DNA of 64,000 bases. It comes from an uncultured Alphaproteobacteria bacterium. Lineage in GTDB: Bacteria; Pseudomonadota; Alphaproteobacteria; Rs-D84. A program made the position numbers and the translations under genes. Under the pieces are notes generated by a model, which had not been told where the DNA came from, ran no database searches, and saw nothing but the letters and a program-made list of their open reading frames with translations. Where the stretch lies: positions 186,001 through 250,000 of the forward strand of contig CAJOGD010000004.1 of assembly GCA_905233975.1 (NCBI GenBank), read 5' to 3'. This document shows, piece by piece, positions 7,902 through 64,000 of this stretch; position 1 is the first letter of the stretch; every line of letters begins with the position of its first letter.

Positions 7902-7949
7902 TGGTAAGTTCCGCCTTCGCCCATTGGGCTTCGGTGGACAAGGGTTAGT

Positions 7950-7976
7950 GCGGGCGCATCGCGCCCGTTTTCTTTT
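7950..7976 (+). terminator. Intrinsic terminator after the barrel gene
   Basis: CGGGCGC (7951-7957) pairs with GCGCCCG (7961-7967) around a 3-base loop, followed by TTTTCTTTT. Confidence 0.7.
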
Positions 7977-8008
7977 CTCACCAATCACTAACACTATCAA
8001 CTTTTCAC

Positions 8009-8044: not shown

Positions 8045-8236
8045 GTCGGTGGGTGTTCCACCGGTGGGGTGTCAGAACCCGTCTATATACCGCCCGAATG
8101 GGGTGAAAAGTACTCCAACCAAAAATTGGTTGGAGGGATGTGAATAATGTTGGGGTTCGCCCTTTACAGAATAAGCACACAATTTGTATATAGATTGTTC
8201 TGAACCTCCAACCACTACGTTTTCGGTGGTATTTTT
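8045..8236 (+). ncRNA. Structured RNA family 1, copy a (leader of surface protein gene)
   Basis: It starts about 7 bases after the -10 box and ends at a terminator-like hairpin. Helices seen: hairpin CGGTGG/CCACCG (8047-8063); long-range TCAGAAC (8072-8078) with GTTCTGA (8197-8203), continued by TCTATATAC (8082-8090) with GTATATAGA (8186-8194); hairpin ACTCCAACC (8112-8120) with GGTTGGAG (8128-8135); a TGTG/CACA closing helix with a variable hairpin. The 3' hairpin ACCAC (8211-8215) with GTGGT (8226-8230) precedes T5. GGTTGGAGG (8128-8136) can instead pair perfectly with CCTCCAACC (8205-8213), which overlaps the terminator arm. Three other copies keep these pairings with different bases. I do not recognise it as a known riboswitch class. 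Confidence 0.75.
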
Positions 8237-8310: not shown

Positions 8311-9819
8311 ATGTGCTTGAAAAAGTTTTTATTGTTCGGGTTGATTGCGGCGGTGTTGCCGGCGGTGGCGGAAGAAGCCGCGGATCGGAAAACCGCAACG
8401 TCGCTTAAATACGTCACACACGAATTGGATACACGACAAAACAAATTCAGTGCGGACGCGAACAAGGCCATGGAATACACCGATTCGGCCGGAACGGTGC
8501 AAAAACGCGCGGTCACATCGGAACTGGGGACCAGCACGTCCGACACATCATTACCAATGGTTGGCGGGGTTAATACTAAACTCGCCACGAAACAAGACGA
8601 TATCGCACCAATCAATGACCACACCGCCGTCACATACACCGGGCAAAGTGGCAGTATCGGCCAAAAGGGCATTTATCAAACAAACGAATCGTATGCGGCA
8701 CAATCGAATAATTTAATCGATGCCAAAACATTTAACGCCGCATTAAAGACCGGCCTTGATAGTGAATTTTTATGTTCAGAATACAAACCCGGCACAGACC
8801 TCTGTTGGGTTTGGTCGATACATAATAACGAAACAACAAACCTTATAGATTGGTCACAAACCGCCACACATGAAATGATTTTATCAGGCGTATGGACTAG
8901 GTATCAGGTGGAAACTTCTATCCAACAAGGACAATGGACATGTAAACATACCTCTGTGCCGGCCGGGACTTATACTGTTACTGTAAACTCTGATAACTCG
9001 CAAAACTGGTACCGCATAGTCACATATGTTAACGGCCAGGCGGCAGTTTCACCAACAACGGGTGGTAAAGCGACCGTCACACTTAATGAGGCCGGGGAAA
9101 TTTGGGTGTTTTGTGCCAGCGATTCGCAAATGGCCACCATAACGCAGGCGCAGATTGTTCCGGGCACAAGTGGTGAAATGCTGCCCTATACAACCCTTGT
9201 CCCGGCGGGATATACCCCGGTGGAATGGATTGAATCCAACGGAACACAGTACATTGATACGGACATCAAGGGGCACATGAATTATACATATGAACTGGAT
9301 TTCCAACAAACCGATACAGGCCAATATCGTAATTGGGGGGTGTTTAATCAATCCACTGGGCAAGGACAAAACATGAGTTTTACATGGTCAAGAGGTTGGG
9401 CGGTCCGTTGGGCATCGGCCATAAATGGTACAGATATTGTTGATTTGGGGTCAATTGATACCAAACGTCATATATTGCGCATAGTTGATGGCGAAATATA
9501 TTTTGACGGTGTTGATAGGGGGCGTTCAACCGGACATGATTCATCATTCGTGTTTAACTATAACCTGTTCTTAGGAACCATTAATCCAGGTGGTACAACG
9601 CCGACCACTAATGCTAAATCAAAATATTATTCATACAAAGTTTGGGACGCCAACGGCGATTTGATTCAAAACTTTGTTCCTGCGCGTCAAAACAGTGATA
9701 ATAAAGTCGGCATGTATGATACGGTATCCGGCCGATTCTTCCCCAGTGTTCCGGCCAACACAAACTTTGCCGCCGGCCCGGATATTTCAAACATTGTCTA
9801 TGTCCCACAGAATCAGTAA
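8311..9819 (+). CDS. Head-conserved surface protein, member 1, with lectin-like tail modules
   Basis: This 502-residue exported protein has three parts. First is a signal peptide (MCLKKFLLFGLIAAVLPAVA) plus a head shared with the other family members through about residue 175 (ATSLKYVTHELDTRQ, SLPMVGGVNTKL, DHTAVTYTG, NLIDAKTFNAALK, LCWVWSIHN). Next is a beta-rich module at about 180-300, resembling a carbohydrate-binding jelly roll. Last is a concanavalin/LamG-like module (GYTPVEWIESNGTQYIDTD to GMYDTVSGRFFPS), ending VYVPQNQ. A GTG at 8284 is in frame, but GGAGAG before the ATG at 8311 decides the start. No promoter is visible between the upstream RNA terminator (ending 8236) and the gene, so expression may depend on readthrough. 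It probably binds glycans or another surface ligand; this is inferred from fold resemblance. Confidence 0.8.
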   Translation: MCLKKFLLFGLIAAVLPAVAEEAADRKTATSLKYVTHELDTRQNKFSADANKAMEYTDSAGTVQKRAVTSELGTSTSDTSLPMVGGVNTKLATKQDDIAPINDHTAVTYTGQSGSIGQKGIYQTNESYAAQSNNLIDAKTFNAALKTGLDSEFLCSEYKPGTDLCWVWSIHNNETTNLIDWSQTATHEMILSGVWTRYQVETSIQQGQWTCKHTSVPAGTYTVTVNSDNSQNWYRIVTYVNGQAAVSPTTGGKATVTLNEAGEIWVFCASDSQMATITQAQIVPGTSGEMLPYTTLVPAGYTPVEWIESNGTQYIDTDIKGHMNYTYELDFQQTDTGQYRNWGVFNQSTGQGQNMSFTWSRGWAVRWASAINGTDIVDLGSIDTKRHILRIVDGEIYFDGVDRGRSTGHDSSFVFNYNLFLGTINPGGTTPTTNAKSKYYSYKVWDANGDLIQNFVPARQNSDNKVGMYDTVSGRFFPSVPANTNFAAGPDISNIVYVPQNQ

Positions 9820-18202: not shown

Positions 18203-18340
18203 GCGTCATACCGCCGAATGGCGGTATCTTCTTAGTCTTACCGAGAATTGGTCTGTCATAGAAACGACGAGACCCCGCGTGAAATCACCCAACGCTGTGC
18301 GTTTTTTGCGGGGCCCGATACCGCGGGGTGACGTTGCTAA
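18203..18340 (+). repeat. Dispersed palindromic repeat block
   Basis: GTCATACCGCCGAATGGCGG forms a near-perfect hairpin. It is followed by the CCGCGTGAAATCACCC arm and GCGGGGCCCGATACCGCGG as in the 9822 copy. It fills the gap between the yfhM promoter side and RNA copy b. Confidence 0.7.
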
Positions 18341-18406
18341 CACTAACCACTATCACTAATCACTTTTCACTTGTTTTTTATTTTCGTTTTCTGATATACT
18401 GGTTTT

Positions 18407-18600
18407 GCCGGTGGGTGTTCCGTCGGCGGGGTGTAACGACCCTTTTGACGATGTCGAATCGCATGTTCGACAGAAAAACTCCAACCAAACAGGTTGGAGG
18501 GATGTGAATAATGCTGGCCGCAAGGAATCAGCAAAATAAGCACACAATTTCGTCAAATTGTCGTTAACCTCCAACCACTAGAATTTTCGGTGGTGTTTTT
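18407..18600 (+). ncRNA. Structured RNA family 1, copy b
   Basis: The promoter is TTGTTT (18371) and TATACT (18395). Long-range helices use different bases from copy a but still pair: TAACGAC (18434-18440) with GTCGTTA (18560-18566), and TTTGACGA (18444-18451) with TCGTCAAA (18550-18557). Other hairpins are TGTCGAA/TTCGACA (18453-18472), ACTCCAACC/GGTTGGAGG (18478-18500) and TGCTG/CAGCA (18512-18533). The alternative pairing GGTTGGAGG with CCTCCAACC (18568-18576) overlaps the terminator arm ACCAC; GTGGT (18590-18594) and T5 follow. It precedes surface protein member 2. Confidence 0.75.
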
Positions 18601-18772: not shown

Positions 18773-19927
18773 ATGCATTTGAAAAAGTTTTTGTTGTTCG
18801 GGTTGATTGCGGCGGTGTTGCCGGCGTTTGCGGAGGAAGCGGCGGATCGGAAAACGGCGACGTCGTTGAAATACGTCACACACGAATTGGATACGCGACA
18901 AAATAAATTTAATGCGGAACAAAACAAAGCCATGGAATACACTAATTCGGCCGGCGATGTGCAGAAACGCGCCGTCACATCGGACCTGGATAATGGTGGA
19001 ACCGAATCGCTGCCCATGGTTGGGGGCGTGAATACGAAACTTGCCACAAAACAAGACGACATCGCCGCGGTTAACGACCACACCGCCGTCACATATACGG
19101 GCCAACCGGGTGGAATAGGGCGGAAAGGAATTTATCAAACAAGCGAATCGTATGCGAATCAATCCGACAACCTGATTGATGCAAAAACTTTCAATGCCGC
19201 ATTAAAGAACGGGCTTGATAGTGAATTCAAATGTAGGGACGATAACCTCGATCCGGTGTCCAATCTTTGTTGGCTCTATACGATACATAATGTAACGACG
19301 GACAATACACTTTTGCCCGCGGGATATACGCTGTTAGAATATATCGCAAGTACGGCAACAGGGCATCAAAGAATAGATACCACAATACTGCCACGTGATG
19401 GGCGTTCAATTGAAATTACATTACAGGGAACCGGCGATCGTGGCGTGCCGTTTAGTTTTGACCAAGATTGGTGCGGTGCCGGTATTATTGATTATGCTGG
19501 GCATAATGGCTTTAATTATGGTGTATGTGCTTCCGCAACAACGGCGGTCAGTGCGGTTGAAAATCAAAAGAATACTTTTTTATATTCGTTGGCCGGGACG
19601 CCGGGCAATTGGATCGGCACATTACAATTTAATGATGAAATAAAAACATCTCACTCTTCGCGCCAGATGAGTAATTTAACAATATTTGCCGGGCGTGCTT
19701 GGTTCGATTCAAATTCATATTGGGTTGGGAAAATTTATTCAGTTATTGTTCGCGATGGATCAACGATTACGAATAACTTTATCCCCGCATTGAATAGCGA
19801 TGGTGTCGCCGGTTTGTATGATATTGTTGGACGACGTTTTTATCCGAACTCTGATACAAATGGCGAACCATTTGTTGCCGGACCGGAAAATTCATCGGCG
19901 AACCTTTATATCCCACAGAATCAATAA
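18773..19927 (+). CDS. Head-conserved surface protein, member 2, with lectin-like tail
   Basis: This 384-residue exported protein begins MHLKKFLLFGLIAAVLPAFA and carries the family head through about residue 180 (RKTATSLKYVTHELDTRQ, ESLPMVGGVNTKL, SDNLIDAKTFNAALK, LCWLYTIHN). A single C-terminal concanavalin/LamG-like module follows (LPAGYTLLEYIASTATGHQ, IFAGRAW, NNFIPALNSDGVAGLYD), ending LYIPQNQ. The ATG at 18773 follows GGAGAGCG; the in-frame upstream ATG at 18740 lies in the repeat block and is rejected. The tail differs from member 1 although the heads are nearly identical, suggesting domain shuffling. Role unknown; surface attachment or ligand binding is inferred. Confidence 0.8.
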   Translation: MHLKKFLLFGLIAAVLPAFAEEAADRKTATSLKYVTHELDTRQNKFNAEQNKAMEYTNSAGDVQKRAVTSDLDNGGTESLPMVGGVNTKLATKQDDIAAVNDHTAVTYTGQPGGIGRKGIYQTSESYANQSDNLIDAKTFNAALKNGLDSEFKCRDDNLDPVSNLCWLYTIHNVTTDNTLLPAGYTLLEYIASTATGHQRIDTTILPRDGRSIEITLQGTGDRGVPFSFDQDWCGAGIIDYAGHNGFNYGVCASATTAVSAVENQKNTFLYSLAGTPGNWIGTLQFNDEIKTSHSSRQMSNLTIFAGRAWFDSNSYWVGKIYSVIVRDGSTITNNFIPALNSDGVAGLYDIVGRRFYPNSDTNGEPFVAGPENSSANLYIPQNQ

Positions 19928-20218: not shown

Positions 20219-21070
20219 ATGGCATTGCCAACATTTTCTATGCAACAATTGATGGAGGCCGGTGTTCACTTTGGACATCACACCCGTCGTTGGAATCCGC
20301 TTATGACACCGTATGTTTATGGGGTCAAAGATAAAATTCATATTATCAATTTGAATAAAACCGCACCGCTGTTGCACCGCGCTTTGGTGGCGCTAGAGGC
20401 GATTTCCGCCGCCGGGGGTAAGGTTTTGTTCGTCGCGACAAAGCACCAGGCCAAGGACATCGTCAAAGATGCCGCGGAACGCACCGGTCAATTTTATGTG
20501 AATAACCGCTGGTTGGGTGGTATGCTTACCAATTGGACGACGGTTTCACAATCGATTCGTCGCCTTAAAAAGATGGAGGCCGATATTCAAAACGCCGATA
20601 AATTGGGCCTTACCAAAAAGGAAGTTGGCGTTATGACCAAAGAAGTTGCCAAATTGCGTGATATCTTTGGTGGTATTTTGGATATGCATGGTATCCCACA
20701 GGTTATGATTGTTATTGACGTTCCGCGCGAAATGAACGCGGTGCGCGAAGCGAAAAATTTGGACATTCCGACGATTGCAATCTGTGATACGAATGCGAAT
20801 CCGGAAATGGTTGACTATCCGGTGCCGGGTAATGACGATGCGTCGCGCGCGATTCAACTTTATTGCGATTTGTGCGTTGATGCGATTTTGTCCGGTATTG
20901 AAAAGCGCCTTGGTGGTGCGGCCGGCAAGAAAGTCGAAGCGTCTATGGCCGATGATGCAAACGATGCGTTGGAAGATGAAATGAAAGACAAAGAAATGAA
21001 ACAACGGTCCAAGGTATCGGGTGCGCGTGAAGTTCGTCGCAGCAAATTGGCGGACAAAGCCGACAAATAA
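20219..21070 (+). CDS. rpsB: 30S ribosomal protein S2
   Basis: S2 sits on the small subunit near the platform and is needed for binding S1 and translation initiation. The 283-residue product starts MALPTFSMQQLMEAGVHFGH and shows the family signatures HHTRRWNPLMTPYVYG, VNNRWLGGMLTNW and IAICDTNANPEMVDYPVPGN. A charged C-terminal extension of about 50 residues (from about 235) is typical of alphaproteobacterial S2. AAGGA precedes the ATG by 7 bases. tsf follows after 71 bases, the standard rpsB-tsf operon. Confidence 0.98.
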   Translation: MALPTFSMQQLMEAGVHFGHHTRRWNPLMTPYVYGVKDKIHIINLNKTAPLLHRALVALEAISAAGGKVLFVATKHQAKDIVKDAAERTGQFYVNNRWLGGMLTNWTTVSQSIRRLKKMEADIQNADKLGLTKKEVGVMTKEVAKLRDIFGGILDMHGIPQVMIVIDVPREMNAVREAKNLDIPTIAICDTNANPEMVDYPVPGNDDASRAIQLYCDLCVDAILSGIEKRLGGAAGKKVEASMADDANDALEDEMKDKEMKQRSKVSGAREVRRSKLADKADK

Positions 21071-27123: not shown

Positions 27124-27376
27124 TTGACTATTGTTTGGCAAATTTGATAAAATCTGAATTGAGCTGAATTGGAATTCGGTTCAGGGTTGTAAGAGGCCCA
27201 TAAGTAACCGGCACATTATGTCGTTATCCGCAAAAATTCCCGATATTTTGTGCCGTCATTTTATCATGCCCCGGATTTCGGGGTGCCTGTGGAGTATATC
27301 TGAAGTCCGCGGGAATCATTGTTGCTTATGATTTCTTACCACCCCGATACCGTAAATTCGCATGCGGTAGTTTTTT
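27124..27376 (+). ncRNA. Structured RNA family 2, copy a, with own promoter
   Basis: The promoter is TTGACT (27124-27129) and TAAAAT (27148-27153), 18-base spacer; RNA from about 27160. Helices: GAGCTGAATT with AATTCGGTTC; GGGTT with GGCCC; CGGCACA with TGTGCCG around an A/T-rich loop; long-range CATAAGTAAC (27199-27208) with GTTGCTTATG (27321-27330); CCCCGGATTTCGGGG and the GGGGTG...CACCCC-type closing helix. The conserved core GTGCCTGTGGAGTATAT is identical in copy b. A terminator hairpin TACCG/CGGTA followed by T6 ends at 27376. It precedes the broken surface protein gene at 27592. I do not recognise the class; it is not 6S, tmRNA, RNase P or SRP RNA by core motifs. Confidence 0.72.
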
Positions 27377-27419
27377 AGTGGCTAGTGCAAGTGGTTAGTG
27401 TGTAGTGAGACTTACAGAG

Positions 27420-27591: not shown

Positions 27592-29072
27592 ATGCAATTG
27601 AAAAAGTTTTTGTTGTTTGGGTTGTTTGCGGCAATATTGCCGGCGGTGGCGGAGGAAGCCGCGGACCGGAAAACCGCAACATCGTTAAAGTATGTCACAC
27701 ACGAACTTGACACGCGCCAAAACAAATTTACTGCGGAATCGAACAAGGCCATGGAATACACTAATACGGCCGGAACGGTGCAAAAACGCACAGTTAAATC
27801 TGATTTGGGTAGCGACACGTCCGATACATCACTGCCCATGGTTGGTGGTGTTAACACGAAACTTGGCGGCAATCAACGATCACACTGCGGTCACATATAC
27901 CGGAACGGCCGGAACAATCGGACAAAAGGGTATTTACCAAGACACTGGAACATATATTGAACAAAGCAACAACCTGATTGACGCAAAAACATTTAACGCG
28001 GCACTAAAGAAAGGACTCGATAGCGAATTTTTATGTTCAGAATACAAACCGAGTACAGATCTTTGCTGGGTTTGGTCGATACATAATACCGAGCCCGTAA
28101 GTATAAATTTATTCGATATGTCACAGATTCCTACAACCCAATATATTGTTCATAATCCCGATGGTTCTGTAACGGTAACCACGTCATCGACCGATAGTGC
28201 AGTAAATACTGGTAAAAAACTTTCACAACTTGCCACCGGGCTGCAGGTTGGTAAAACGTATAAGTTTTGGAACAGATAAAGAAATTGTCTTGCCGGGACC
28301 GCCTCGTGTAGGCTGGTTTAATGGTAGAACGCAAACCATAACGCAAGATATGTTAAATTCGACTGTATATCTTTATGCAAGTGGCGTGAATACCACCGCA
28401 ACCATATACGATATTCAGATAACCGAAGTAAACCCCGAAATGCCGTTTGAAACCCTTGTTCCATCTGACTACACGCCGGTGGAATGGATTGCAACATCGG
28501 GGACACCGTATATTGATACGGGGATTGTGGGCCGCAGTGGTATTTCGGTCAAGGCGAAGTTCATGCTTAATACATCGGCCAATGGTGCGTTGTTTGGAAA
28601 CAGAATGAGTACTGAAACCCGATTTTTCCCAATGTTATGGTTCGCCACGAGTGGCGGGCCGGTACGCTGGGATACCGCGGTGAATTCCGATAATTATGGG
28701 GATCCAATATTAGCAAATACCATGTACATTGCAGATTTTACATCTTCGGCTTCGAGTTTTGCACTTGATGTTAACGGTTATCGAATGTTAAGTGGATCAT
28801 CGGTTGGGACAAATACGAATAACCTGTGGATGTTTGGGGTCAATAATAATGGGAATCTGCAATATCCGTTCAATGGTAAAATGTTTTTTGCCAATATATG
28901 GCAGGGCGATACATTGGTTCGTGAATATATCCCCGCAAGGCGCAATAATGATAATGTTGTTGGGGTATATGATCGGGTGTCGAACAGGTTCTTTACCTAT
29001 TCTGGCGCAGACGGCACATTTATCGCCGGACCGGATATTCCCAATAATGTCTATGTGCCACAGGAACAGTAA
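27592..29072 (+). pseudogene. Head-conserved surface protein, member 3, broken by two frameshifts
   Basis: The gene starts MQLKKFLLFGLFAAILPAVA after GGAGAGCG and follows the family head to SLPMVGGVNTKL. About 20 bases encoding the ATKQDDI segment are missing near 27863, moving the frame. The head then resumes in another frame (INDHTAVTYTGTAGTIG to LCWVWSIHN). A second shift lies near 28264: one extra T in a run of four turns YKFGTDKEI into a stop at 28279. The third frame encodes a binding module and a concanavalin-like module (DYTPVEWIATSGTPYIDTG to GVYDRVSNRFFTYSG), ending VYVPQEQ. Otherwise it is full length (about 490 residues). It may be decayed, phase-variable or a sequencing error; the preceding RNA belongs to family 2. 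Confidence 0.75.
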
Positions 29073-32442: not shown

Positions 32443-32520
32443 GGCGGATGTAGCTCAGCTGGTTAGAGCGTCGGTTTGTGGTACCGAATGTCGCCGGTTC
32501 GAATCCGGTCATCCGCCCCA
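32443..32520 (+). tRNA. tRNA-His (GTG)
   Basis: The extra 5' G (G-1) typical of tRNA-His faces C73. The acceptor stem GCGGATG pairs with CATCCGC; the D arm has AGCTCAGCTGGTTAGAGC. The anticodon loop TTGTGGT carries GTG, the T arm is CCGGTTCGAATCCGG, and CCA is encoded at 32518-32520. Confidence 0.97.
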
Positions 32521-33130
32521 GAATTCAAAAATGCCCCGAACGGGGCATTTTTAAATTCTCTGGACGGATCGGATGAGAACCGGAGGTTCGACACGATAGC
32601 CGGTTTTACACGCAGTGAAACCGTTGCGAGTGGAAAGGGGCCCGTTGCAAAGCAACGGGAATATACAATCCGGTCATCCGTCTTTGCTTTGCTACGCCGA
32701 GACAGGTCCGCCCCAGAAATTTACAAAACGCCCCATTGTGGGCGTTTTGTGAATTTTTAGTGTGTATGTCTGGGTTCGAACCGGCGAAGCAGCCGGTTCG
32801 AACCGTAGCAAAAAGGCGGAATAACGCCGGTTCGCCCAAAGGGCGAATTTTGCAAGGTGGCGCAGCAATCCGGTCATCCGTCTTCGCTTTGCTACGCCGA
32901 GACAGGTCCGCCCCAGAATTCAAAAATGCCCCGAACGGGGCATTTTTAAATTCTCTGGACGGATCGGATGAGAACCGGAGGTTCGACACGATAGCCGGTT
33001 TTACACCGTTGCGAGTGGAAAGGGGCCCGTTGCAAAGCAACGGGAATATACAATCCGGTCGCCGATTTTCACCGAAGCGATAGCGAGGACTGAAAATCGA
33101 GCGTCGCGCCGTAGCCCGTTGGGCGTAGGC
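32502..33130 (+). repeat. Tandem array of tRNA-His 3'-end copies with hairpins
   Basis: The sequence AATCCGGTCATCCG, the 3' end of tRNA-His, recurs at about 32670 and 32870 and partially at 33051. Each copy is followed by divergent spacer and a hairpin: GCCCCGAACGGGGC at about 32532 and 32931, and ACGCCCCATTGTGGGCGT near 32730. The spacer of about 150 bases after the tRNA (32518-32668) is repeated almost exactly at 32911-33050, lacking 16 bases. GGTTCGAACC-type T-loop fragments also recur near 32772-32806. No gene is supported; the long minus-strand frame here arises from the repeats. Confidence 0.75.
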
Positions 33131-35511: not shown

Positions 35512-35761
35512 TTGACTTGATTTGTATGGTTTTGATAAAATGATTGACGAATCAGATGGGAATCTGGTTCGGGGCTGTGAGAAGCCCGCATCTGTTCGGT
35601 GCAATGCATCGTAATCCGGAAAATTTCCGTATGTTTTGCACCGTAATGTTTTCCCCGCATGTCGGGGTGCCTGTGGAGTATATATAAAGTCCATGGGAAT
35701 CATTAACAGATGTGATTTCTCAACACCCCGACCGCGTGGTTTCCACTGCGGCACTTATTTT
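35512..35761 (+). ncRNA. Structured RNA family 2, copy b, with own promoter
   Basis: The promoter is TTGACT (35512-35517) and TAAAAT (35536-35541), 18-base spacer. Helices: GAATCAGAT with ATCTGGTTC; GGGCT with AGCCC; GGTGCAA with TTGCACC; long-range CATCTGTT (35589-35596) with AACAGATG (35705-35712); TCGGGGTG (35672-35679) with CACCCCGA (35724-35731). The core GTGCCTGTGGAGTATAT is shared with copy a. The terminator CCGC (35732-35735) with GCGG (35748-35751) is followed by a T-rich tail. It lies 182 bases upstream of surface protein member 4. Confidence 0.75.
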
Positions 35762-35769
35762 AGTGTGAG

Positions 35770-35927
35770 TGCCGTCATTCCGGCGAAAATTTGTATGCGA
35801 GAACGAGCGTAAGCGAAGTTCAAACAACTACAAATTTGCGCGCAGGCAATAAGCCGAGCGAAACCGGAAGAGTTAATTCTCAGGAAAGCCTGAGGAGATC
35901 CCGCGTCAAGCGCGGGATGACGAAGGA
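35770..35927 (+). repeat. Palindromic repeat carrying a nested 80-base insert
   Basis: GTCATTCCGGCG opens the repeat palindrome, but its loop holds an insert of about 80 bases (35786-35866). The insert has inverted ends AAATTTGTA/TACAAATTT and ends GAGCGAAA before CCGG resumes. A second normal unit, GATCCCGCGTCAAGCGCGGG, follows. Confidence 0.7.
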
Positions 35928-35942: not shown

Positions 35943-37106
35943 ATGTTTTTGAAAAAGTTTTTATTGTTCGGATTGTTGGTGGCAATGTTGCCGGCGGTGG
36001 CGGAAGAAGCGGCGGACCGCAAGACCGCAACGTCATTGAAATATGTCACGCACGAACTTGACACGCGACAAAACAAATTCGGCGCGGACACTAACAAGGC
36101 CATGGAATACACCGATTCGGCCGGAACGGTGCAGAAACGCGCGGTCAAATCTGATTTGGGCACCAGCACGTCCGACACATCACTGCCCATGGTTGGGGGT
36201 GTTAATACGAAGTTAAATCAGAAACAGGACGACATAGACCCGTTTAACGATCACACCGCGGTCACATATACTGGAACGGCCGGCGGTATCGGGAAGAAAG
36301 GAATTTATCAAACAACCGGCACATACGCGGAACAATCCGACAATTTAATCGACGCAAAAACATTCAACGCGGCATTAAAGAATGGTCTTGATAGCGAATT
36401 CGTATGTAGGGAAGATAACCGCGATCCGGTGTCTGGACTTTGTTGGCTCTATACGATACATAATGGTACGGCGGGAAATTCTTTGCCGGACGGATATACA
36501 GAATTGGAATATTTAATATTTGATGGGCAGTCATATTTTGATACCGGTATTGTTTTGAGGGATATACATAACATCGAAAATGTTATAGAAATGCAAAACG
36601 CTAACCCTGATAGTAACGCATTTCAAACATGGACGGGCTTTATGTACCAGAGCACAACACCAAGATATGGTATAAACACGTATAGTGGCAGATGGATGAT
36701 TGGGGTTAATATTACCATTAATTCTGGTTTGCCACAGGATGGAAATAAACATACTTTACGATTTGTGACAACCGACGGCACGCAAACATTGTATGATACC
36801 AACGGGTCTGTATTATCTAACGGTTCGTTGACAGGCAGTTTTGCGAGTAATGCATTGTCTTTATATATTGGTGCAAGAAATCAAGGAAGCAGTGTGACAA
36901 ACTATGTGATTGGTAACATAGGGCGGACATGGTTGTCACAGAATGGCACAAAGCTTTATGATTATATACCGGTGCGCAATGGTGCCGGGGACCTTGGTAT
37001 GTATGATATGGTAAGCCGTACGTTTAAACCAAATGCTGGACAAGGGACACTTACCGCCGGGCCAGAGGTAGGTACTAGCAATATCTATATTCCCCAGAAT
37101 CAATAA
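35943..37106 (+). CDS. Head-conserved surface protein, member 4, with lectin-like tail
   Basis: This 387-residue exported protein starts MFLKKFLLFGLLVAMLPAVA after AAAAGGGGAG. The family head runs to about residue 180 (YVTHELDTRQNKF, SLPMVGGVNTKLNQKQDDI, NLIDAKTFNAALKNG, LCWLYTIHNG). The concanavalin/LamG-like module is SLPDGYTELEYLIFDGQSYF, LSLYIGARNQGSS and YIPVRNGAGDLGMYDMVSR, ending IYIPQNQ. The head is nearly identical to that of member 5 at 49329 while the tails are unrelated. It is preceded by a family-2 RNA and flanked on both sides by repeats carrying the same 80-base insert, so the gene sits inside an apparent repeat-bounded cassette. Confidence 0.8.
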   Translation: MFLKKFLLFGLLVAMLPAVAEEAADRKTATSLKYVTHELDTRQNKFGADTNKAMEYTDSAGTVQKRAVKSDLGTSTSDTSLPMVGGVNTKLNQKQDDIDPFNDHTAVTYTGTAGGIGKKGIYQTTGTYAEQSDNLIDAKTFNAALKNGLDSEFVCREDNRDPVSGLCWLYTIHNGTAGNSLPDGYTELEYLIFDGQSYFDTGIVLRDIHNIENVIEMQNANPDSNAFQTWTGFMYQSTTPRYGINTYSGRWMIGVNITINSGLPQDGNKHTLRFVTTDGTQTLYDTNGSVLSNGSLTGSFASNALSLYIGARNQGSSVTNYVIGNIGRTWLSQNGTKLYDYIPVRNGAGDLGMYDMVSRTFKPNAGQGTLTAGPEVGTSNIYIPQNQ

Positions 37107-37275
37107 CGTCATACCGCCGAAAATTTGTATGTGAGAACGAGCGTAAGCGAAGTTCAAACAACTACAAATTTGCACGCAGGCTGTAAGTCGAGCGAAATGC
37201 GGTATCTCCTTATCATCGTCGCAGGCCAATCCGCGATGTTCCCGACGGGATCCCGCGTCAAGCGCGGGATGACGC
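37107..37275 (+). repeat. Palindromic repeat carrying the same nested 80-base insert
   Basis: GTCATACCGCCG, then the insert (37118-37198; same inverted ends as at 35786), then TGCGGTATCTCC. The insert again lies in the palindrome loop. GATCCCGCGTCAAGCGCGGG follows. Confidence 0.7.
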
Positions 37276-41514: not shown

Positions 41515-41604
41515 GCGTTCGAACCAAAAGACACAATTAGTTTTCGGCACTGTGTACGCGCGGTGTGGCGGAAACGACAGCAACAAATAAAAGGGAGGAA
41601 AAAA

Positions 41605-42228
41605 ATGCGTATTGGCAATTTGTTTTTGTGTGGGGTGTATGCGGTGGCGATTAGTGGCGCAACATTTGCGGCCATGGCGGCGGGCGATGATGCGGCCGAT
41701 CGTAAAAAGGTGACATCGCAATACTATGTTGATGAAAAGTTGAAATTAAAACAGCCGGAAATGAGTGGTACCAATGGCCGGGTTGTTATGTATCCAACTT
41801 CGTATGATATTGATGAAACGGCGCAGATTGGAACCCCTGGGGAAAAGCCGGTAGCCGAAGCGCTTAGCGGGTCGGGTGTTACCGATAATGATTTGCCGAA
41901 TGTTGGTGCGGTCAGAGCGGGGTTAGAAGATAAACAAGATAAACTTAGTGGAACAAACGGTTATGTGGTCACGTATCGTAATGTCGGTGATAGTGGCGAA
42001 CAATTAAAAGGTAACCCAATATATAACCCAAGTGCGAACTATAACGCGGATGGTAGTTATAGTAAAAAGAATAAAGATGGTGTGATTCAGGCAAACCATG
42101 CCAATCCCGCCATTGCAAGGGGTTTGAACGCACATTTAACCCCGGATACCAACCAACAGGGGCCTGGGGGTGTAAATTGGCTTTATACTATTAGAACCGA
42201 GGTGGACGGTACAGATTATACAAGGTAA
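41605..42228 (+). CDS. Short exported relative of the head-conserved family
   Basis: The 207-residue product starts MRIGNLFLCGVYAVAISGA after GGGAGG, with a signal peptide ending near AAMAAG. Like the family heads it carries D-x-ADRK-x-TSQYYV near the mature N-terminus (compare EEAADRKTATSLKYV), a DxDLPNVGAV motif (compare SLPMVGGV), EDKQDKLSG and a terminal LYTIR. It then stops without a lectin-like module or PQNQ tail. It could represent the ancestral head-only form or a different branch. It is preceded by a plain promoter and followed by the terminator at 42262. Confidence 0.7.
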   Translation: MRIGNLFLCGVYAVAISGATFAAMAAGDDAADRKKVTSQYYVDEKLKLKQPEMSGTNGRVVMYPTSYDIDETAQIGTPGEKPVAEALSGSGVTDNDLPNVGAVRAGLEDKQDKLSGTNGYVVTYRNVGDSGEQLKGNPIYNPSANYNADGSYSKKNKDGVIQANHANPAIARGLNAHLTPDTNQQGPGGVNWLYTIRTEVDGTDYTR

Positions 42229-48932: not shown

Positions 48933-49151
48933 TTGTGTTTTATTTTCGTTTTCTGATATACTGGTCTTGCCGGTGGGTGTTTCGCCGGTGGGGTGTCAAG
49001 ACCCGTTTTAGCGATGCCGGTTTTCGGCGAAAACTCCAGCCAATGTGTTGGAGGGTTGTGAATAATGTGGGGCCTGGCCCCGTCAAAATAAGCACACAAT
49101 TTCGCTAAAATTGTCTTGAACCTCCAACCACACGTTTTCGGTGGTGTTTTT
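48933..49151 (+). ncRNA. Structured RNA family 1, copy c, with promoter
   Basis: Promoter TTGTGT (48933) and TATACT (48957). Helices: CCGGTG with CGCCGG; long-range TCAAGAC (48996-49002) with GTCTTGA (49113-49119), and TTTTAGCG (49006-49013) with CGCTAAAA (49103-49110); GCCG/CGGC hairpin; CTCCAG with TTGGAG; GGGGC/GCCCC apical hairpin. TTGGAGG (49048-49054) can also pair with CCTCCAA (49121-49127), which abuts the terminator arm ACCAC (49127-49131); GTGGT (49141-49145) and T5 follow. It precedes surface protein member 5. Confidence 0.75.
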
Positions 49152-49164
49152 CATTAGTGGTCAA

Positions 49165-49305
49165 CGCCGTTATTCCGGCGAAAGCCGGAATCCTATCGGA
49201 AGTGTCGCGGACCAAAGCCGCGGAAAGCCCAGGGAGATACCGCGTGAAATCACCCACAAAAAACGCCATGCGTTTTTCGCGGGACCCGATACGGCGGTAT
49301 GACGA
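49165..49305 (+). repeat. Dispersed palindromic repeat block
   Basis: GTTATTCCGGCG...GCCGGAATCC and the CCGCGTGAAATCACCC arm with GCGGGACCCGATACGGCGG, immediately before the member 5 ribosome site. Confidence 0.65.
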
Positions 49306-49328
49306 AAAAAAAAGAAAAGGAGAGCGAT

Positions 49329-50453
49329 ATGCAATTGAAAAAGTTTTTGTTGTTTGGGTTAATTGCGGCGGTGTTGCCGGCGGTGGCCGAAGAAGCCGCG
49401 GACCGCAAAACCGCAACGTCGTTGAAATATGTCACACACGAATTGGACACGCTTCAAAACAAATTCGACGCGGAACAAAACAAAGCCATGGAATACACCA
49501 ATGCGGCCGGAACGGTGCAAAAGCGCGCCGTCACATCGGAACTGGGGACCAGCACGTCCGACACATCACTTCCCATGGTTGGTGGGGTGAATACAAAATT
49601 AAATCAGAAACAGGACGACATCGCCGCGGTTAACGACCACACCGCCGTCACATACACTGGGCAACCCGGCGGTATCGGCCAAAAGGGAATTTATCAAACA
49701 ACCGGCACATACGCGGAACAAAGAAATGACCTGATTGACGCAAAAACATTCAATGCGGCATTAAAGAATGGTCTTGATAGTGAATTTGTATGTAGGGAAG
49801 ACAACCGCGATCCGGTGTCCGGACTTTGTTGGCTTTATACGATACATAATACATACGAAGAATCCGCACAGCCTTATGTTTCGGCGACCGGCACCGTTGT
49901 CCAAGATGGCACCCCGACACCAACGAATCCAATTTATCCCGTTTTCTATCGCCAGGGCGATATGGTATTGCGCAAAGTCGGTGACTATGCCGATTCATTC
50001 GACGCCACAACACATAAAATCACAAGACGCGTTGGTGTAAAAGTACTTGATGGGACGGAAAATTGGAGCCTACAAACATACCCTAACTATGTAATGGATG
50101 GTGCCACAACTTTTTGGAATGTCGGTGCAATACAGGACAACTTGTCGGTGAGGGCAGAAAGACCAGCTATTGGAATAAGTAACTATTTAATTAATGCGCC
50201 TGTGTCCTCAGCAGGCTCGACTCCTAAAATAGCTAACAGTTTTTCTATTGGTTCAACTGCACACACTGTTCATACTTTATGGATGCGTATAGAAGGGGAA
50301 AAAACTGTTGCCGAATGGAAACAATGGCTTGCCGACCAATACAACGCCGGCACGCCTGTGACAGTGTATTATCCACTCGCCACACCGGTGGAAGAGGATT
50401 GGACCGAAACAACGTATAATGAAAACGTCTATATCCCCCAGAATCAGAATTAG
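49329..50453 (+). CDS. Head-conserved surface protein, member 5, with phage-fibre-like tail
   Basis: This 374-residue exported protein starts MQLKKFLLFGLIAAVLPAVA after GGAGAGCG. It has the family head to about residue 178 (one change, DTLQ for DTRQ). The tail is not the concanavalin-like module of other members. It starts YEESAQPYVSATGTVVQDG and includes GDMVLRKVGDYADSFD, ITRRVGVKVLDGTENW and EWKQWLADQYNAGTPVTVYY, patterns I associate with Firmicutes prophage tail-fibre and surface proteins. It ends VYIPQNQN, with one residue after the shared tail. The same head with an unrelated tail strongly suggests modular exchange. The gene is preceded by a family-1 RNA. Confidence 0.8.
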   Translation: MQLKKFLLFGLIAAVLPAVAEEAADRKTATSLKYVTHELDTLQNKFDAEQNKAMEYTNAAGTVQKRAVTSELGTSTSDTSLPMVGGVNTKLNQKQDDIAAVNDHTAVTYTGQPGGIGQKGIYQTTGTYAEQRNDLIDAKTFNAALKNGLDSEFVCREDNRDPVSGLCWLYTIHNTYEESAQPYVSATGTVVQDGTPTPTNPIYPVFYRQGDMVLRKVGDYADSFDATTHKITRRVGVKVLDGTENWSLQTYPNYVMDGATTFWNVGAIQDNLSVRAERPAIGISNYLINAPVSSAGSTPKIANSFSIGSTAHTVHTLWMRIEGEKTVAEWKQWLADQYNAGTPVTVYYPLATPVEEDWTETTYNENVYIPQNQN

Positions 50454-62369: not shown

Positions 62370-62436
62370 TCCGCCTTCGCGCAAAACGCTACGGCGCGAC
62401 TTCGCCGCCCCCCCCCCTTTCCGGTGGAAAGGGGAC

Positions 62437-62655
62437 TTAAAAAACACCGCATTGGAAACCAAGCGGTCGGGGTGTTGAGAAATCACAAGCAATCATGACC
62501 CCCATGGACTTCATATATACTCCATAGGCACCCCAACCAACGGGGCGGTACCAGAATAACGGCACAAAATATCGGAAATTTTGCGGATTACGACATAATG
62601 TGCCGATTGCTTGCGGGCTTCTCAGGGCCCCAAACCAGATTCCCATCTGTGTTCG
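62437..62655 (-). ncRNA. Structured RNA family 2, copy c, orphan, minus strand
   Basis: On the minus strand: promoter TTGCGT (plus 62685-62690) and TAAAAC (62661-62666), 18-base spacer. Helices: CAGAT with ATCTG; GGGC with GCCC; CGGCACA with TGTGCCG; long-range CAAGCAAT (plus 62606-62613) with ATTGCTTG (plus 62486-62493); GGGGTG with CACCCC. The core with TGGAGTATATATGAAGTCCA is conserved. A terminator CCGC/GCGG with T6 ends near 62437. No gene follows on this strand, so this copy acts alone or is a displaced leader. Confidence 0.72.
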
Positions 62656-62756: not shown

Positions 62757-62961
62757 TGTCGGCGGGTGTTCCGTTGATGTGGTTTGAAAGCCACCTCACA
62801 AAGCGTCAATTTACGGCGCGGTTGTTGCGTCGTTTTTTGATGAAAAATTCCTGGCACTTTGGGGGCCAGGAAGGCGGTAAAATATCTTTTAATATACCGC
62901 ACAATTCTTTGTGATTGCTTTCAACCTCCTGGCCACTTGAAGTTATTTCGGTGGTGTTTTT
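62757..62961 (+). ncRNA. Structured RNA family 1, copy d
   Basis: Promoter TTGTTT (62722) and TAAAAT (62746). Almost all paired bases differ from copies a-c yet still pair: TCGGCGG with CCGTTGA; TTGAAAGC (62784-62791) with GCTTTCAA (62917-62924); TCACAAAG (62796-62803) with CTTTGTGA (62907-62914); TTCCTGGC (62848-62855) with GCCAGGAA (62865-62872); GCGGT with ACCGC. GGCCAGGA (62864-62871) can alternatively pair with TCCTGGCC (62927-62934), overlapping the terminator arm CCAC; GTGG (62951-62954) and T5 follow. Confidence 0.75.
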
Positions 62962-62996: not shown

Positions 62997-64000
62997 ATGG
63001 GTTTGAAAAAGTTTTTGTTGTTCGGGTTGATTGCGGCGGTGTTGCCGGCGTTGGCGGAGGAAGCGTCGGACCGCAAAACCGCAACGTCATTGAAATACGT
63101 CACGCATGAATTGGATACGCGTCAAAACAAATTTGGCGCGGAACAAAACAAGGCCATGGAATACACCGATTCGGCAGGAACGGTGCAAAAACGCACAGTC
63201 ACATCGGATTTGGGCAGCAGCACGACGGACACATCACTGCCCATGGTTGGGGGTGTGAACTCAAAGTTAAATCAAAAACAGGACGACATAGACCCGTTTA
63301 ACGACCACACCGCGGTCACATACACCGGAACGGTCGGAACAATCGGCCAGAAAGGAATTTATCAAACGACCGAATCGTATGCCGAACAATCGGATAATCT
63401 TATTGACGCAAAAACCTTTAACGCCGCATTAAAGAACGGACTTGATAACGAATTCAAATGCAGGGACTATAAACCGGATACGAATCTTTGCTGGGTTTAT
63501 TCGATACATAATAATATTGGTGATGGGTCATTGCCGCCCGAATATACACAGTTGGAATATATTGAAAGTACAGGGACGCAATGGATTGATACGGAAATTT
63601 ATCCGTCTGATAGCACAACGACGCAAGTCGATTTTCAATACACAGAACTTCGGGCGAATGACACGATTTTTGGTGCTAATACTCAGAATGCAGTTGAATA
63701 TTACGGTCTTGGGTTGGCCCATGGCACCCAATGGCGTTTGTGGTATGGCAGTGGTGGTTCTCCATGGGTTGTATTTGGTGATGCGGACACGAATAAACAC
63801 AGGGTTGTATTAACGGATAGAAAGATATATTTTGATGGTGCCACCGTTCCCAGTGCAACATCGCGTTTAACACTAACATCGCCATCATCACGACCGATTA
63901 CATTATTCGCATATAATTATCGTGATACAGCACCAGTGTCATATTTCGCAAAAGCAAAGATATTCGGTGTTGTAATCAAACAGGGCCAAGAAACCGTCCG
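62997..64000 (+). CDS. Head-conserved surface protein, member 6, 3' end outside window
   Basis: The frame is open from the ATG at 62997 to the window end (334 complete codons). It starts MGLKKFLLFGLIAAVLPALA after GGGGAGGAAA. The head follows the family (EEASDRKTATSLKYVTHEL, SLPMVGGVNSKLNQKQDDI, NLIDAKTFNAALKNGLDNE, LCWVYSIHNN). It continues into a concanavalin/LamG-like module (EYTQLEYIESTGTQWIDTE, LTDRKIYFDGATVP). The PQNQ tail would lie beyond the window. Only 35 bases separate the T-run of RNA copy d from the start codon, with no promoter between, so transcription must come through the RNA. Confidence 0.85.
   Translation, partial: MGLKKFLLFGLIAAVLPALAEEASDRKTATSLKYVTHELDTRQNKFGAEQNKAMEYTDSAGTVQKRTVTSDLGSSTTDTSLPMVGGVNSKLNQKQDDIDPFNDHTAVTYTGTVGTIGQKGIYQTTESYAEQSDNLIDAKTFNAALKNGLDNEFKCRDYKPDTNLCWVYSIHNNIGDGSLPPEYTQLEYIESTGTQWIDTEIYPSDSTTTQVDFQYTELRANDTIFGANTQNAVEYYGLGLAHGTQWRLWYGSGGSPWVVFGDADTNKHRVVLTDRKIYFDGATVPSATSRLTLTSPSSRPITLFAYNYRDTAPVSYFAKAKIFGVVIKQGQETV

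Follow-up and report, generated by a model that had tools for sequence, protein, structure and literature searches.

The mosaic adhesive trimer (MAT) proteins of Bdellovibrio bacteriovorus, a family of 21 members, combine an invariable N-terminal part with swapped phage-like tips, which are related to phage fibres and lectins and recognise bacterial surfaces (PMC10769870). In rhs and polymorphic toxin systems, a conserved N-terminal part gains new C-terminal ends by recombination (PMC2935791, PMC3482391). Here we describe a family that has the arrangement of the MAT proteins, being multi-copy and joining an invariable N-terminal part (the head) to swapped phage-like C-terminal tips (the tails). 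Six of its loci lie in the 64,000-nucleotide stretch of DNA that was analysed (the window; C4:186001-250000), which belongs to a rumen alphaproteobacterial genome of 1,038,472 bases in 11 contigs (G000; ~1.04 Mb, 94.8% complete). The host genus is, we suspect, Candidatus Enterousia (order Rs-D84), a genome-reduced group for which partner-dependence is probable (PMC12306168).

We believe the repertoire may work like the Bdellovibrio MAT proteins, a likeness of arrangement that we put forward as an analogy and not as a claim of superfamily membership. Where B. bacteriovorus has 21 members, this genome of ~1 Mb has at least 55 loci; neither an S74 domain (Pfam) nor a beta-prism shaft was detected here, the head model being of low confidence; and here the heads are homogenised within species and each gene is preceded by a structured RNA leader. 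All three of the family's tail modules recur in the phage receptor-binding and baseplate proteins that carry CBM-like and LamG-like modules, but here they are mounted on a predicted Sec-exported bacterial head, singly or in pairs within a gene, at dozens of loci. The rhs and polymorphic toxin systems differ in that the tails described here are binding modules with no adjoining immunity gene, and in that many complete genes are present here, as against displaced tips at a few loci there. Overall, the explanation that we favour, and regard as probable, is a large family of exported adhesin-like proteins with a constant head and phage-type tails that are reshuffled by recombination, each gene being gated by its leader.

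Genes, tails and leaders of the family

Each unit runs from a promoter-like site through a leader RNA, usually a repeat-rich spacer, a ribosome-binding site, a signal peptide and the head to the variable tail and a constant end. The head is about 174 aa long and ends in CW-Y-IHN, and the C-terminal end common to intact members is mostly (I/V)Y(I/V)PQNQ. Across the family in this genome, head proteins are 71-94% identical and tails about 36% on average, while head DNA identity is 73-91%. A sequence-only reading of the window had described the heads as almost identical; their relatedness stands, chance being excluded for full heads (E below 1e-80), but near-identity does not, as window head proteins are only about 77-88% identical. 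Its description of the C-terminal modules as unrelated or strongly diverged held, the window tails proving strongly diverged on comparison. AlphaFold modelling, which gave a low-confidence model for the head, resolved the fold of neither the head nor the class B tail, and Foldseek returned no significant match for either model. A PDB search with the heads gave no match, nor did whole proteins match anything above cut-off in Pfam, NCBIfam or PHROG. The signal peptide at the head N-terminus is an export signal and the only such indication of location in the sequence; the family is best explained as one of Sec-exported, adhesin-like proteins. What we say of surface exposure, ligands, switching and evasion is what we infer.

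Three types of tail module, ConA/LamG-like, CBM-like 'NLFD' and 'QDGTPTP', make up the tails of the 48 intact genes, which fall into class A (LamG/ConA-like, 20 genes), class B (a QDGTPTP frame with a hypervariable core, 12), class C (NLFD type, 7) and class D (mostly C plus A, with one tandem A, 9). Judged by sequence comparison, phage tail or receptor-binding proteins contain each of the three module types. Among PHROG families, class C members match those of tail proteins (best E 9.4e-13), tail fibres and host range, and a class C profile matches the phage minor structural protein 5e7t_B in the PDB (E 2.4e-5), with weaker matches to endoglucanase and xylanase CBMs. Alignment searches place relatives of classes A and B in IMG/VR contigs, and A, C and B modules stand consecutively in one 862-aa phage protein (L199). 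For class A, the top VIA-align rows are ConA-like domains at Z 6-7.5, under the level excluding a common arrangement, and are suggestive only of a LamG/ConA-like beta-sandwich. These matches agree with the earlier naming of the tails as carbohydrate-binding-like, LamG/concanavalin-like and phage-fibre-like. Single tails found no match by tblastn in a named phage collection; the IMG/VR alignments did match. A contig classed as viral (L198, IMGVR_UViG_2802429671_000001) encodes at 91-1047 a distant head-like region fused to a LamG-like tail, and is either a mis-binned bacterial contig or the bearer of a transferred copy.

All six loci proposed from the sequence (8311, 18773, 27592, 35943, 49329 and 62997) are present with those starts, on the forward strand, and align in register through DNA repeat families D1-D3. 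Copy 1 (8311-9819) has its head to about 8826, a class D tail of NLID/CBM-like and LamG-like modules, and the end YVPQNQ. Copy 2 (18773-19927) joins a head to a class A (LamG-like) tail directly upstream of rpsB (20219-21070), and copy 4 (35943-37106) joins a head to another class A (LamG-like) tail, with the junction at about 36390-36464. Copy 3 (27592-29072), with a tail of class D type, is broken: its reading frame shifts in both the head and the tail, and 20 nt are deleted from the head. Copy 5 (49329-50453) has a class B tail with conserved frame and hypervariable core, and copy 6 (62997-64000), with a class A tail, extends beyond the window to end at C4:250136 (window position about 64136). 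A distant head-only paralog with about 31% identity to family heads lies at 41563-42228, also on the forward strand.

Searched with copy 4 as the query, the genome has 80 matching places, and the family comes to at least 55 distinct loci, a count of ~55 having been reached separately from heads and from strong leader matches. The genes, extracted from stretches around the matching places, comprise 48 intact and 3 frameshifted members, the remainder being truncated at contig ends. At ~1.5 kb per unit, we estimate that the family takes up roughly 8% of the genome. Relatives from the public genome set bear the label Alphaproteobacteria or proteobacterium and are MAGs from the rumen; in one genome, G036, no family member was found. 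Frame-breaking head deletions of 20-29 nt, real or possibly assembly errors, occur in three copies that share a tail type (window 27592-29072, C4:35919 and C7:89316), at the same site in two of them. Palindromic REP-like dispersed repeats lie in the gaps from leader to gene and downstream of stop codons (window 7943-7984, 18291-18352, 35773-35863, 37107-37197 and 49243-49314), and near-perfect direct repeats of 53-100 nt lie 3' of tRNA-His (window 32512-33060).

That each copy stands under its own structured leader, as had been proposed, is confirmed by leader matches at all six copies, backed by covariation. Both types of leader, about 190-230 nt long with a terminator-like hairpin as the 3' end, fold as structured RNAs with strong support from covariation. 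Type-2 leaders, all on the forward strand, precede copy 1 (8045-8236; R1 match of 178.5 bits, covariation in alignment A2, and a terminator-like hairpin at 8211-8230 in a terminator scan), copy 2 (18407-18600; 193.1 bits), copy 5 (48969-49151; 179 bits) and, in divergent form, copy 6 (62758-62961; 85 bits). Type-1 leaders precede copy 3 (27161-27378; R2 match of 160 bits) and copy 4 (35549-35762; 206 bits, with covariation that includes the loop-to-downstream helix), again on the forward strand. In this helix the type-1 hairpin loop pairs with a far-downstream segment; all cells pair, both partners vary in 5 of the 6 pairs, and the structure signal is lost when the partners are shifted by 1-3 columns. 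An orphan type-1 leader on the reverse strand beside copy 6 (62436-62654; R2 match of 190.5 bits), with no family gene downstream, is perhaps the trace of a lost copy. A consensus scan found a sigma-70-like promoter match for copy 4 (TTGACT, 18 nt, TAAAAT; 35512-35541, forward strand) and no site for copies 1 and 5.

The leader is a candidate new RNA class; a search of Rfam (4227 models) gave no match at the gathering score and none that was convincing at a relaxed threshold. The type-2 model matches 131 of the 141 genomes searched in the genus. Elsewhere in its own genome this leader type precedes small helix-turn-helix-like genes, a gene for a glycine-rich exported protein and an 81-aa gene that is followed by a PPDK-like gene; in G036 the genes behind it, named by eye, encode exported cysteine-rich proteins or are small and HTH-like. 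It would thus appear to be a genus-wide attenuator of exported proteins and regulators. We hypothesise an alternative (antiterminator) pairing, which is indicated by invariant complementarity and one covarying variant (C4:259223, by eye).

A further route to variable ends exists in the same genome. A DGR comprises a reverse transcriptase with the LPIGNLTSQW motif and a template repeat at C4:242-370 (locus C4:242-2020, L233), and its variable repeat lies at the end of a distant head paralog (C8:52841-53992, L082), in which 13 of 13 differences in the first 129 nt fall at template adenines. Target proteins of DGRs are typically ligand-binding, which supports the head as a display scaffold. With a DGR-diversified tail on a distant paralog, variable binding ends are thus displayed on this kind of head. 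The window copies appear to vary by whole modules and not by adenine-specific substitutions in a variable repeat, and we provisionally set aside DGR mutagenesis as the source of their tails, adenine-specific variation having been found only in the distant paralog. Reverse transcriptases were also found in G091, G126 and G143.

Separate histories of heads and tails

Heads are alike within species and unlike between species, and related tails persist across species on other heads and at other loci. Identity among heads is 81.7% within and 57.3% between species, and among tails 35.7% within and 37.7% between. At six loci, orthologous places could be recognised by their flanking genes, mostly by one flank in the other species, the genomes being drafts. 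Upstream of rpsB, different class A tails are found here and in G152; at C3:58104, G152 has a class D tail; at C1:31510, a B tail here corresponds to a C tail in G141 and to another C tail in G168; at C4:259223, a D tail here corresponds to an A tail in G168; and at C6:79452, a C tail here corresponds to a B tail in G141. Only C5:36750 has a LamG in common with G152 (58%), which has an extra module. Tails are thus non-orthologous at 5 of the 6 loci across sister species, which argues against purely vertical inheritance. The sequence-only reading had set its proposal against fixed head-tail pairs that evolve only vertically, and such pairs are contradicted at these five loci, in a comparison of species and not of strains.

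Could an ancient expansion of paralogs, in which purifying selection preserved the likeness of the heads while neofunctionalisation drove the tails apart, explain the family without any exchange of modules? Heads are indeed under strong purifying selection (dN/dS 0.135) at a high dS (median 0.90), any identical 60-nt window is common to at most a fraction of a percent of head pairs, and C5:36750 does keep a related LamG in G152. We nonetheless consider such an expansion unlikely. Each of the 48 heads is matched best by another head of its own genome, which does not hold for most tails from other genomes, 18 of 23 being matched best in a different genome; heads also diverge more between species than related tails, the G152 tail upstream of rpsB being 71% identical to the C3:58104 tail of our own genome while their heads are 45% identical. 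Head and tail histories are incongruent, orthologous loci bear different tails, and the same module is found on different heads: the two least similar heads (72.7%) bear the same C module at 81% DNA identity, and one LamG variant is found in three contexts.

The preferred reading, reshuffling by recombination, is also supported within the heads. Although four-fold sites in the heads are far from saturation (0.63 vs 0.29 expected), linkage in head DNA is down to background at distances above about 30 nt, with p=0.004 in the PHI test, and 421 of 435 balanced head codon pairs occur in all four combinations, with several close pairs linked; the PHI and linkage signals could stem in part from repeated mutation. 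Tail class is moderately linked to head codons about 89-120 and strongly to codons 150-174, with no linkage at 1-80 and 121-140, and from the strong linkage at 150-174 it follows that the junction box travels with the tail. Tail-class linkage by codon, site pairs in four combinations, the contrast of head and tail identity and the orthologous loci together uphold the original proposal that the repertoire recombines and that exchange takes place close to where head and tail meet.

About equally improbable is a model wherein leader, head and tail move jointly as non-autonomous mobile cassettes, and apparent swaps are independent insertions at the same places. The presence of a copy upstream of rpsB varies between species (none was found within 1.5 kb in G141, G160, G168, G043, G020 or G036), an orphan leader exists, and single copies are dispersed, with contig breaks in heads. 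At the same time, sequences after the stop codons are unrelated save for common dispersed repeats, and head alleles, leader types and tails assort independently within the unit (p=0.98 for leader type against tail class), which transposition of whole units would not yield. Simple mobile elements are thus not favoured, there being no 3' flank in common, although rpsB presence/absence and the orphan leader do show turnover.

Fast antigenic or phase variation, in which a population would switch or rewrite individual members and thereby escape phages, protists or host immunity, seems to us less probable still. Each copy does have one attenuator-like leader, and at contig ends, which break within heads, identical 99-nt head stretches fork to different tails, so that more recent exchange may be hidden by assembly. 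Tail-only cassettes, however, are absent for class B, in which each of the 14 tails is attached to a head or to a head cut short by a contig end, and none was seen for class A; 48 of the 51 assembled full-length copies are intact; and the shared modules are old, with dS of 0.35-0.69 and dN/dS of about 0.09-0.26, indicating purifying selection. With dS at or above 0.35, the exchanges that we resolve are evolutionary and not fast antigenic switching, and swapping among assembled copies is slow, unlike classical antigenic variation. Silent-cassette variation, with one expression site and promoterless incomplete cassettes, was likewise rejected, the copies examined having both leader and start. 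Finally, a polymorphic toxin system with displaced C-terminal toxins is very improbable, for while a constant N-terminus with displaced C-termini recalls rhs evolution (PMC2935791, PMC3482391), the tails match carbohydrate-binding and phage tail modules and not toxin domains, the tails searched for toxin families gave no match, and no conserved gene follows the stop codons.

A possible role in partner recognition

On the explanation that we favour, homologous recombination would reshuffle the tails, acting in the leader and head sequence common to the copies, 5' of about codon 150, and in the common tail ends, and the same recombination would homogenise heads within species. The head would anchor or present the tail at the cell surface, the tail would bind glycans or proteins on the surface of partner cells or particles, and transcription of each gene would be gated through attenuation by its leader, such that subsets of the repertoire could be expressed.

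More speculatively, and as a possibility that we hold only tentatively, this genome-reduced and, on this view, partner-dependent alphaproteobacterium may recognise its partners via a phage-type receptor-binding repertoire borne on the species-homogenised head. The repertoire would owe its diversity to module exchange and, on sister heads, to a retroelement, and each member would be gated by a copy of a previously undescribed, genus-wide attenuator RNA. Genome reduction is expected to purge redundant genes, yet a sizeable share of this genome goes to one binding repertoire. How uncultured gut symbionts recognise their partners becomes directly testable with such a system, in which modules known from phages are joined to a head kept uniform within species and every gene has a structured RNA of its own.
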